Both the position numbers and the translations under genes were made by a program. Under the pieces are notes generated by a model. It saw only the letters and a list, made by a program, of their open reading frames with translations, was not told the DNA's origin and made no database searches. A stretch of 64,000 nucleotides of DNA from Rhizomicrobium sp. (lineage in GTDB: Bacteria; Pseudomonadota; Alphaproteobacteria; Micropepsales; Micropepsaceae): the NCBI GenBank assembly GCA_037200385.1, contig JBBCGL010000001.1, positions 4,107,418 through 4,171,417 on the forward strand. Reading direction: 5' to 3'. How positions within the stretch are numbered: the stretch's first letter is position 1; every line of letters starts with the position of its first letter. Below, one piece after another: positions 45,000 through 47,830 of the stretch.

Positions 45000-45878
45000 C
45001 TACGCGGGTACAGGCGCGGCTTCGCCGGCGACGGCCCCCTCTTGGGATCCTGTGGCTTGGGCTGAAACGGGAGCGGCCCAACGAATGATCTCCAGATGTC
45101 CGCTGGCATCTTCGACAAGGGCTGTGCAGCTTTCAACCCAGTCTCCATCGTTATGGTAGAGGACGTTGCCGATCCGGCGGATCGCCGCCTGGTGGATGTG
45201 GCCGCAGATCACGCCGTCGAGGCCTTTGCTTTCGGCCGCCCGCGCCACCACTTCCTCGAAGCGGCAGACATATTCGACGGCGTCCTTGACGGCATGCTTG
45301 AGCCAGTTGGAGAGCGACCAATAGGGCAGGCCGAGCTTGCGGCGGATGCCGTGCAGCACCTCGTTGGCGGCCAGCGCCTTGTCGTAGGCCCAGGAGCCCA
45401 GATGGGCGAGCCATTTGGCGAACTCGATCACGCCGTCGAACTGGTCGCCGTGCAGCACCAGCAGCTTCTTGCCGTCCGCCGTCTCGTGCACGGTCTCGCG
45501 CACCACTTCCACGCCGGCATAGGTGCGGCCGCAGAAGCCGCGCAGGAATTCGTCGTGATTGCCCGGAACGAAGATCACCCGGGTGCCCTCGTCGACCTTG
45601 CGCAGGATCTCATGGACCACGCGGCTATGCGCCTCGGGCCAGAACCAGCGGCGCTTGAGCTGCCAGCCGTCGACGATGTCGCCGACCAGATAAAGGGTCT
45701 CGCAGCTGTTCTGCTCGAGGAAGTCCAGCAGCTGCTCGGCTTTGCAGCCCCGTGTCCCCAGATGGATGTCGGAGACGAAGATCGTGCGGTGGAAGCGTGT
45801 CGGCCGGGCCGGCGGCGACGCGACGCGCGGCGGCTTGAAAGACACCGGCGGCGATACCAGCCAGGAGATACGGGCCAT
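45000..45878 (-). CDS. LpxH-like UDP-2,3-diacylglucosamine diphosphatase family phosphoesterase
   Basis: A 292-residue calcineurin-fold metallophosphoesterase. The dimetal motifs are intact: SDIHLG (36-41), GDIVDGW (66-72), GNHDE (106-110), LHGDQFD and GHIHQAAIR. This is the COG2908 group, which includes the lipid A enzyme LpxH, but many alphaproteobacteria use the unrelated LpxI for lipid A and keep this group for other lipid diphosphates, so the substrate is open. The C-terminal 35 residues are a Pro/Ala tail. The GT4 gene follows at once. Upstream lies a phased GANTC repeat array. Confidence 0.85.
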   Translation of the reverse strand: MARISWLVSPPVSFKPPRVASPPARPTRFHRTIFVSDIHLGTRGCKAEQLLDFLEQNSCETLYLVGDIVDGWQLKRRWFWPEAHSRVVHEILRKVDEGTRVIFVPGNHDEFLRGFCGRTYAGVEVVRETVHETADGKKLLVLHGDQFDGVIEFAKWLAHLGSWAYDKALAANEVLHGIRRKLGLPYWSLSNWLKHAVKDAVEYVCRFEEVVARAAESKGLDGVICGHIHQAAIRRIGNVLYHNDGDWVESCTALVEDASGHLEIIRWAAPVSAQATGSQEGAVAGEAAPVPA

Positions 45879-45903
45879 TCGTCGCGCTCCTCAAAAGCGG
45901 ACG

Positions 45904-46003
45904 CGAATCTGCGTCCCTTCTGAAGCCGACTGCGTAACGGTGGCGCACGAATCTTTTGCGCTAAGCGTGCGAATCTTTTGCGGAAGGTCTGCGAATCTTT
46001 TGT
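45904..46003. repeat. 22-bp-phased CGAATCTTTTG direct repeats with GANTC sites
   Basis: CGAATCTTTTG occurs perfectly at 45948, 45970 and 45992, each 22 bp apart, and a partial copy (CGAATCTGCG) lies exactly two periods upstream at 45904. Each copy contains GAATC, a GANTC site for the CcrM adenine methyltransferase; more GANTC sites follow at 46037 and 46164. Two-turn helical phasing suggests cooperative binding of a regulator upstream of the LpxH-like gene, 70-125 bp from its start. Confidence 0.8.
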
Positions 46004-46175
46004 TGCGGTGCAGCGACAGCGGCATGACTTGGTAAGGATTCGTTAGGGATCACCCCGCGGATCAGCCTGTGATTTTGCGCCGCACAATAAAGTCGGAAGT
46101 TTCGAGAATGCCTGCAAATCAGGCTAATTGGCGCCGATTTGCTGGGTTTTTCACGAAATTGCCGAATCTTTGGAC

Positions 46176-46204
46176 TTGCGCGGAGCAAGGCAGGAGTCCA
46201 TATT
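46176..46204 (+). promoter_or_regulatory. Promoter-like sequence for the candidate small RNA
   Basis: TTGCGC (46176-46181), 17-bp spacer, CATATT (46199-46204). Modest match; it would start an RNA near 46211. Confidence 0.4.
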
Positions 46205-46210
46205 GTTGCA

Positions 46211-46304
46211 GCGCGGTATGACCGACCTCCCGTTAGTCATGCCGCCTGCCCTTCCTGGGCGTTTCCTCCCTGAACTTGGCCGCTCCTCTGGAGCGGCCTT
46301 TTTT
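46211..46304 (+). ncRNA. Candidate trans-acting small RNA with anti-Shine-Dalgarno loops
   Basis: About 94 nt, no ORF. Helix 1: a 10-bp stem 46213-46222 / 46236-46245 with a 13-nt loop containing CCTCCC (46226-46231). A small helix GCCC/GGGC (46248-46260) follows. Next is a single-stranded stretch TTTCCTCCCTGAACTT with a second CCTCCC (46265-46270). Last is a 9-bp terminator stem GGCCGCTCC / GGAGCGGCC (46278-46298) and six T. The layout resembles alphaproteobacterial sRNAs such as the alpha-r14 type, whose loops carry CCUCC anti-SD motifs; family membership is inference. It ends 89 nt before the convergent amidohydrolase gene. Confidence 0.6.
46278..46304 (+). terminator. Intrinsic terminator of the candidate small RNA
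   Basis: GGCCGCTCC-tct-GGAGCGGCC followed by TTTTTTCTT. It points to the plus strand only and no plus-strand coding gene precedes it within 6 kb. Confidence 0.88.
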
Positions 46305-46392
46305 CTTCCCCAGCTTCTGCTGCATCGCTATCGCACCGGACGCCGCTGGCGCCGCGCAAGTCCGAATTCTGGGCATCACGGAAACGGAAGGT

Positions 46393-47307
46393 TCACTCGG
46401 CGGCCAGGCTATGCCGGCGGCTGCGGGCCAACAGGCCCGGCTCGATGCCGACCAGGCGGGTGATCACCTCGGTCAGCCGGGCATGGACCAGCTCGAAATG
46501 CGGCCCTTTGGCGATCCGCTCCTCGTCCAGATAGATCGCGCGGTTGATTTCGACCTGCAGCGCATGCACGTCCTGGTCGCGTCGTCCGTGCAGATGCGTC
46601 GTGTAGCCGCCGGCATAGGGCGTGTTGCGTGCATGCCGGAAGCCCTGCGATTCGAAGGCGAGCTCCGCGGCCCGGGTCACGAGCGGCGCCGCGGCCATGC
46701 CGTAGCGGTCGCCCAGCACCACGTCGGGGATGGCGGCGGCGGACGGCATCGAGTGGCAATCGATGACGACGGCCACGCCGAACAGCGCGCGGGTTTCCTC
46801 CACCAATTCCCTCAAGGCGGCGTGATAAGGCCGATAAAGCCGGGTCAGCCGCTCCTCGGCGTCGCGCGCCGGGAGCTTGGCGCGGTAGATCTCCGCCCCA
46901 TCGCGCACGATCCGCGGGATCACGCCCAGCCCCGCCGCCACGCGCGGTGTCGGCGTGTCGACCGTGACCGCAAGGGCGCCCTCGAACATCGCGCTGTCGA
47001 TTTCCGCCGGCGCCCGGTTGGCGTCCAGGAAGGCGCGCGGAAAGCGAGCGGCGATCATCGGCGCGCCCAGCGCCACCGCACCGCAAAACAGCTCCTCGAC
47101 GAAGGCGTCCTCCGAGCGGCGCAACGAAAGCGCGCTGAGCCGGCTCATCGCCACGAAGCTGGCGGGGTAGGCGCGGCCCGAATGGGGCGAGGCGAAGACG
47201 AAGGGCACCGTCTGGCGGAACGGGCGATGGATGCGAAAGGGTTCGGCATACAGTCCGGCCAGCTCGGCGTCGCCGTCACCCGTCCTGCCTGATCCCGCCT
47301 GCGCCAT
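46393..47307 (-). CDS. N-formylglutamate amidohydrolase family protein
   Basis: A 304-residue zinc amidohydrolase of the FGase family. FVFASPHSGRAYP, RSEDAFVEELF, VVIDCHSMPS and YAGGYTTHLHGRRDQDVHALQVEINR (shown in part; the QVEINR motif) are conserved blocks with metal-binding His and Glu. The family hydrolyses N-formyl-L-glutamate at the end of histidine degradation, though stand-alone members outside hut clusters, as here, may act on other N-acyl amino acids. Divergent from cpdR. Confidence 0.9.
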   Translation of the reverse strand: MAQAGSGRTGDGDAELAGLYAEPFRIHRPFRQTVPFVFASPHSGRAYPASFVAMSRLSALSLRRSEDAFVEELFCGAVALGAPMIAARFPRAFLDANRAPAEIDSAMFEGALAVTVDTPTPRVAAGLGVIPRIVRDGAEIYRAKLPARDAEERLTRLYRPYHAALRELVEETRALFGVAVVIDCHSMPSAAAIPDVVLGDRYGMAAAPLVTRAAELAFESQGFRHARNTPYAGGYTTHLHGRRDQDVHALQVEINRAIYLDEERIAKGPHFELVHARLTEVITRLVGIEPGLLARSRRHSLAAE

Positions 47308-47411
47308 GCGATTCGCCGTCCTTGCCTTCAGTGGACCATTAACGCGCCAGCCCGATCAAGCGGCGAAAGGGCCGCGCCTTGCCGGGGTCGGTCTCCGTCC
47401 CGGCCCCGCCG

Positions 47412-47442
47412 TTAACCGTCGTTTACCGTTTGCCCGTTATAG
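47412..47442 (+). promoter_or_regulatory. CtrA-like box and -10 element upstream of cpdR
   Basis: TTAACCGTCGTTTAC (47412-47426) matches TTAA-N7-TTAA with one change, followed by TTATAG at 47437-47442. CtrA boxes overlap the -35 region of activated promoters in Caulobacter-type bacteria. The predicted start is about 20 bp before the cpdR ATG. Confidence 0.5.
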
Positions 47443-47470
47443 GCTTAAGTGGAGGGGCAAGAGCGGGCCC

Positions 47471-47830
47471 ATGGCGCATATTCTTCTGGCAGAAGACGAC
47501 GAAAGCTTGCGCAAGTTCCTCGCGCAGGCGCTGGTGAAGGCCGGCCATGCGGTCACCGATTTCGGCGATGGCGGCGATGCCTACGAGTGCCTGAAGGGCT
47601 TCCGCTTCGATCTTCTGGTCACCGACATTGTGATGCCGGGCATGGACGGCATCGAACTCGCCAAGCGCGCGGCCGAGATGGACCAGGCCTTGAAGATCAT
47701 GTTCATCACCGGCTTCGCGGCGGTCGCGCTGCATCCCTCGGCGAACGCACCCAAGCAGGCGAAGGTGTTGTCGAAGCCCTTCCATCTGCGCGAGATCGTC
47801 GCCGAAGTCGACCGCATGATCGCGGCGTAA
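47471..47830 (+). CDS. cpdR: Cell-cycle response regulator CpdR
   Basis: A 119-residue single receiver domain with near-identity to CpdR across its diagnostic blocks: MAHILLAEDDESLRKFLAQA, LLVTDIVMPGMDGIELAKRA (phospho-acceptor D52), IMFITGFAAVALHP and AKVLSKPFHLREIVAEVDRM. Unphosphorylated CpdR is the adaptor that brings ClpXP to the cell pole and primes degradation of CtrA and other substrates; the CckA-ChpT phosphorelay turns it off. ATG 47471 follows a GGAGGGG at 47451-47457. A CtrA-like box upstream fits feedback control. Confidence 0.96.
   Translation: MAHILLAEDDESLRKFLAQALVKAGHAVTDFGDGGDAYECLKGFRFDLLVTDIVMPGMDGIELAKRAAEMDQALKIMFITGFAAVALHPSANAPKQAKVLSKPFHLREIVAEVDRMIAA

Follow-up and report, generated by a model that had tools for sequence, protein, structure and literature searches.

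A predicted αr8 (MmgR/SisA) small RNA gene beside an N-formylglutamate amidohydrolase gene in Rhizomicrobium, with matches to the PhaR operator consensus at its promoter

Introduction

Does the plus-strand element at positions 46176–46304 of the 64,000-nucleotide stretch of Rhizomicrobium sp. DNA analysed here (the window) encode a small regulatory RNA and, if so, of which family and with what role? A preliminary description proposed a trans-acting anti-Shine–Dalgarno RNA of ~94 nt with its own promoter and terminator, a reading that fits the evidence presented below. The features that it listed (promoter, stem with CCTCCC in the loop, small helix, unpaired CCTCCC and terminator) are all present in the sequence.

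Small RNAs of the αr8 family are reported from every alphaproteobacterial order except the Rickettsiales (PMC12559287, in the sections cited here), so that finding one at this locus is expected. According to the same sections, most species have a single αr8 copy, adjoining a gene for N-formylglutamate amidohydrolase (FGase), and the common features of these RNAs are a terminator and 5'-UUUCCUCCCU-3' located downstream of a weak hairpin. Members of the family are tied to carbon storage and nutrient uptake.

The gene described here is real and well conserved, but it belongs to this known family. The best explanation of the whole, in which we place high confidence, is a chromosomal αr8 (MmgR/SisA) gene of a Rhizomicrobium-like alphaproteobacterium, predicted to give an RNA of ~94 nt with a 10-mer that blocks ribosome-binding sites and to be repressed by PhaR. 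The features are as follows.

46070–46090, no strand assigned: upstream predicted PhaR site, an exact match to WNWDDNYGCRNYGCRNHHWNW (consensus from PMC12542648, as given in the section cited)
46176–46181, plus strand: –35 element TTGCGC, read from the sequence; layout conserved in relatives
46199–46204, plus strand: –10 element CATATT, read from the sequence, 17-base spacer from the –35 element; conserved in relatives
46201–46221, no strand assigned: second predicted PhaR site, also an exact match to the operator consensus, lying across the –10 element and predicted start
46211–46304, plus strand: predicted αr8 (MmgR/SisA) small RNA, ~94 nt, RF00519; start placed 7 bases after the –10 element, end taken from the terminator
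46213–46245, plus strand: 5' hairpin from the fold, with a 10-bp stem (46213–46222 with 46236–46245); two-sided changes in 9 of 13 pairs
46226–46231, plus strand: loop CCUCCC, possible auxiliary anti-Shine–Dalgarno motif, mostly unpaired; in 7 of 81 members
46247–46261, plus strand: small second hairpin from the fold, UGCCC-UUCCU-GGGCG; its four inner pairs invariant in 41 distinct aligned members
46262–46271, plus strand: UUUCCUCCCU, the single-stranded family 10-mer, identical to the αr8 10-mer given in the cited section of PMC12559287
46278–46304, plus strand: intrinsic terminator, ending in a T run; paired in 98.9% of its alignment cells
46393–47307, minus strand: FGase gene, convergent with the small RNA (PF05013, E = 5.8e-70); the usual αr8 neighbour in the cited section of PMC12559287

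Family assignment

The Rfam covariance model RF00519 (named suhB and described as MmgR) matches positions 46241–46313 over its full length (model positions 1–77 of 77) and scores 63 bits, where the gathering score is 41. Because a family model matches above its gathering score, the element is beyond chance. The αr8 features are all found at the locus: the exact 10-mer, the weak hairpin that precedes it, the terminator and the adjoining FGase gene. On these sequence grounds the plus-strand element at about 46211–46304 is very probably an αr8 small regulatory RNA. Other families with CCUCCC ahead of a terminator resemble it but differ in scoring below their thresholds: anti-hemB (RF02837), SorX (RF02784) and the Betaproteobacteria toxic sRNA (RF02278) reach 22–30 bits, each under its gathering score, and the matches of SorY and rli32 are also weaker and under theirs.

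The genome, a single contig of 5.0 Mb, has two RF00519 matches, of which one exceeds the cut-off and the other is weak. The latter (L002, G000:C1:3537382–3537454, minus strand) scores 31 bits, below the cut-off of 41, and consists of CUUCCUCCUC followed by a terminator-like hairpin. It is possibly a diverged αr8 sibling or another anti-Shine–Dalgarno small RNA.

Within the order Micropepsales 88 of 96 genomes contain an RF00519 match, which is over the cut-off in 85. In named contigs 71 FGase loci were found, 27 of them with the strict αr8 core. From the other 44, 40 (all except L099, L100, L102 and L103) were scanned with RF00519, which exceeded its threshold in nine and not in 31. In all 36 loci carrying the small RNA, it lies on the strand opposite to the FGase gene. 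For 24 of the 27 loci the distance from the end of the FGase match to the nearest core is 60–188 bases (122 in the window); in L040, L054 and L075 the distances are 752, 1768 and 487 bases. An identical 300-base stretch that includes the start of the RF00519 match is shared by L015, from a genome placed in the same genus, and L101, from Rhizomicrobium electricum; the window accordingly falls near Rhizomicrobium within the Micropepsales. In a Hyphomicrobiaceae metagenome-assembled genome (L090) a tandem pair of αr8 cores stands beside one FGase gene.

Two other identities were weighed. The preliminary description favoured an αr14-type RNA (NfeR1, RF02344) with two anti-Shine–Dalgarno motifs. 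The αr14 design places such motifs in unpaired regions, and unpaired motifs and a terminator are indeed present at the locus. It is the covariance model that separates the two families: no αr14 match occurs at the locus at E values up to 5, where RF00519 matches in full, and membership was rejected on this ground. The whole genome also gave no αr14 match, although the control genomes were silent in the same search, so that absence is not established by it alone. Moreover, the loop motif occurs in just seven of 81 members. We regard an αr14 RNA as extremely improbable. That the element only ends a neighbouring transcript and gives rise to no free small RNA might be suggested by a strong terminator so close to the 3' end of a gene. 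Yet the strand that it terminates is opposite to FGase, the promoter, 5' hairpin and 10-mer are all conserved and relatives are detected RNAs, which makes this reading very improbable.

Structure and conservation

The predicted folding energy of the 129-nt stretch is –61.4 kcal/mol (z = –5.08), a value equalled by none of 200 dinucleotide shuffles. The predicted fold of the 94-nt RNA that would start at 46211 comprises the 10-bp 5' stem, the small helix and the terminator, the hairpin of which (46278–46298) has nine pairs, eight of them G–C, followed by a T run to 46304. In this fold UUUCCUCCCU at 46262–46271 is unpaired with probabilities of 0.70–1.00; in the 129-nt fold, which includes bases upstream of the predicted start, this second anti-Shine–Dalgarno motif is partly paired. 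The 10-mer is likely to be the main seed. It occurs in all 81 members taken, an invariance that is partly built in, because the members were picked by a pattern containing TT[TC]CCTCCCT. Besides the window they comprise 80 loci out of 84 fetched; the four dropped by the pattern are L141, L146, L150 and L153, and allowing a one-letter variant of the 10-mer recovers L141 and L146 but not L150 or L153.

An alignment was made of 43 of the 81 members (41 distinct); they were selected because their 5' hairpins are alike in length, a choice that favours that hairpin. In it 93.4% of cells in the three helices are paired. There are 13 pairs changed on both sides where shuffles give 6.3, and the covariation score of 0.277 compares with 0.159 for shuffles; none of 500 shuffles was as high on any of five measures. 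When the partners were slid out of register pairing fell to 34–51%, yet three to nine pairs still had two-sided changes. The two-sided changes lie in the 5' helix (9 of 13 pairs) and the terminator (4 of 9), with none in the second hairpin, which never varies and is therefore uninformative either way. Since 9 of its 13 pairs show such changes, the 5' hairpin is supported within the order. It lies almost wholly upstream of the RF00519 match, and adds a covariation-supported element to the picture of αr8 in the Micropepsales.

The loop of this hairpin is another matter. Five of the six letters of its CCUCCC (46226–46231) are unpaired at a probability of at least 0.98 in the 94-nt fold, the first C being part of a weak 3-bp inner helix. 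The loop is variable among members, and the hairpin segment contains CCTCCC in only seven of 81 and CCTCC in nine. ACCTCCCG is common to the window, L110, L111, L139 and the dropped member L141, and L009, L143 and L144 have similar loops; L138, which is among the nearest by FGase identity (as L033, 80%), lacks CCTCCC in the loop. A pair of conserved anti-Shine–Dalgarno motifs was accordingly rejected as a property of the family, and a conserved design with two CCUCCC motifs is unsupported: only the motif in the linker, which is the family 10-mer, is a family feature, and the second, in the loop, is a local elaboration. Orthologous regions in which the stems and CCTCCC motifs are not conserved had been named beforehand as one outcome that would count against the proposal; the stems proved to be conserved, but the loop motif did not. 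The preliminary description, working from the sequence alone, had found the gene and guessed the likely mechanism; it had the family wrong and gave the second motif too much weight.

A loop motif of this kind is not without precedent: MmgR has an anti-Shine–Dalgarno motif in its first loop for which, according to a review (PMC7143759, in the section cited), a role in targeting is predicted. We considered an αr8 RNA with two independent seeds, in which, within the clade, the 5' loop CCUCCC would target mRNAs of its own. The mostly unpaired loop, its identity in L110, L111, L139 and L141 and its similarity in L009, L143 and L144 are in keeping with this, as is slightly better pairing of the loop motif with 30 TonB-receptor leaders than with 30 dehydrogenase leaders (p = 0.025, unadjusted). 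That value comes from a pair of unadjusted tests for which start codons were assigned by a crude rule, and CCTCCC is missing from this place in 74 of 81 members, the near relative L138 among them. A second independent seed seems to us unlikely. Equally doubtful is a wider proposal, that in a Rhizomicrobium-like clade αr8 has been made into a two-seed RNA (the ancestral linker 10-mer and the 5' loop) that is switched by PhaR from the start-site box and forms one regulon with the phasin gene. We return below to the αr8 RNA with the linker 10-mer as its main seed.

Promoter and PhaR operator matches

A simple sigma-70 scan of 45000–47500 scored no promoter. The putative promoter is supported despite this because 70 of 81 members of the order keep its layout (TTG-N3, 16–18 bases and a CATATT-like hexamer).

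Upstream, positions 45901–46200 hold seven GANTC sites (45905, 45949, 45971, 45993, 46037, 46164 and 46194) and are the densest 300 bases of the window for this sequence (mean 0.48). GANTC is the methylation site of CcrM. Three of the sites are spaced by 22 bases, in copies of AATCTTTTG; L110 and L111 have this 9-mer twice each and L141 has it once, whereas L138 and L139 lack it.

The PhaR consensus WNWD2NYGCRNYGCRNH2WNW, in which we read D2 and H2 as DD and HH, comes from Sinorhizobium, where a site in the mmgR promoter is listed and PhaR shifts DNA in EMSA (PMC12542648, in the section cited). The window has only two full matches, 131 bases apart, the upstream one and that at the predicted start site, against an expectation of 0.34; as many as two arise in 4 of 100 shuffles. 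Across the genome there is no enrichment of the pattern, with 24 places (each on both strands) against 29 for a reversed control. Two of the 24 are those at the present promoter, and one, at 975150–975170, lies 105 bases ahead of the start codon (975044) of the only Phasin_2 (PF09361) gene of the genome. A 70-base segment upstream of this gene (L183, G000:C1:975101–975170) contains three TGCN3GCA dyads. Two of these are between the box and the gene, one overlapping CATATA 17 bases after TTGACA.

Of the 81 members, 78 have the core YGCRNYGCR in their 72-base promoter region, where mononucleotide shuffles lead one to expect 1.4. Among the 66 that have both a core and a recognized –10 element, 63 carry the core exactly 2 bases downstream of that element. 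The full 21-base pattern is present in 19 of the 81 promoter regions, with 0.65 expected from the flanks. The members are related to one another and the start-site box overlaps the 5' stem with its right half, so that conservation of the core is not independent proof of an operator. The genome has a gene with the DNA-binding domain of PhaR (PF07879), and the 4 kb around it contain no full PhaR box. The box matches suggest that PhaR probably represses transcription of the small RNA. Two further YGCRNYGCR cores lie in the intergenic region (46004–46012 and 46076–46084), where they may have a part in control of the divergent phosphoesterase and glycosyltransferase genes as well.

Mechanism and possible targets

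Family, structure, promoter and operator matches and synteny can be read from the DNA itself; from these we infer transcription, binding by Hfq and PhaR, and targets for the predicted RNA. A housekeeping-type promoter would yield the RNA of ~94 nt, whose single-stranded UUUCCUCCCU would pair with purine-rich ribosome-binding sites, presumably with the help of Hfq, and lower translation of a set of mRNAs. The 5' hairpin, which covaries, may protect or present the RNA and, in a small clade, add an auxiliary anti-Shine–Dalgarno loop. Repression by PhaR, probably through the boxes on and upstream of the start site, would couple the small RNA to the state of the carbon store. The RNA is most likely an Hfq-assisted, PhaR-controlled blocker of ribosome-binding sites. 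An hfq gene is encoded in the genome, and SisA represses a leader with which it pairs through the 10-mer (PMC12559287, in the section cited); by analogy, blocking through the 10-mer with Hfq should hold here.

MmgR lowers phasin proteins and PHB (PMC8401924). For the phasin mRNA of the present genome, a role as direct target is unsupported: the duplex with the whole RNA does not stand out from shuffles, 21 of 200 being at least as strong, and the motif energies on its leader (–7.9 and –8.6 kcal/mol) fall short of the medians in both of the comparison sets described next.

TonB-dependent receptors are a target class in Caulobacter, and the present genome has a large set, with 69 matches to the receptor plug domain. 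Leaders of 30 of these were compared with those of 30 of 78 short-chain dehydrogenase matches. With start codons assigned by a crude rule and p-values unadjusted, median pairing energies for receptors and dehydrogenases were –10.0 and –9.0 kcal/mol with the 10-mer (p = 0.06) and –9.3 and –8.7 kcal/mol with the loop motif (p = 0.025). Receptor leaders thus pair slightly better than the controls at best. Some individual ones, among them those in L227 and L239, pair strongly, at –16.5 and –16.2 kcal/mol, but one dehydrogenase control reaches –15.9 kcal/mol.

No place in the genome has AGGGAGGAA at 2–10 bases before an ATG. GGGAGGA is found 2–11 bases before ATG at 67 places, against seven for the reversed pattern, and we read these mostly as ordinary Shine–Dalgarno sites. 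Loci were available for 30 of the 67; 19 distinct frames of at least 100 amino acids scanned against Pfam included one TonB receptor, from which we claim no enrichment. Literature searches that covered Micropepsaceae small RNAs and CCUCCUCCC gave the αr8 and PhaR papers cited here; three of the other hits are general papers by title.

Comparison with related systems

The element shares with MmgR of Sinorhizobium meliloti (αr8, RF00519) the covariance model, the 10-mer region and the terminator; MmgR is 77 nt long, against the 94 nt predicted here. With SisA of Caulobacter crescentus, also αr8, it has in common UUUCCUCCCU after a weak hairpin, the terminator and the FGase neighbour (PMC12559287, in the section cited). 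Caulobacter is described there as having four αr8 siblings (SisA–D) and the sponge CrfA, whereas the present genome has the one match over the cut-off and the weak one.

The PhaR (AniA) box is likewise a feature of the Sinorhizobium mmgR promoter (PMC12542648, in the section cited). There it is located within the –35 and –10 elements (PMC8401924), whereas here it covers the –10 element and predicted start, a position close to that reported for SMa1961 in the cited section of PMC12542648. The control of αr8 by PhaR shown by EMSA in Sinorhizobium may hold in a distant order too, where the operator would have shifted to the start site.
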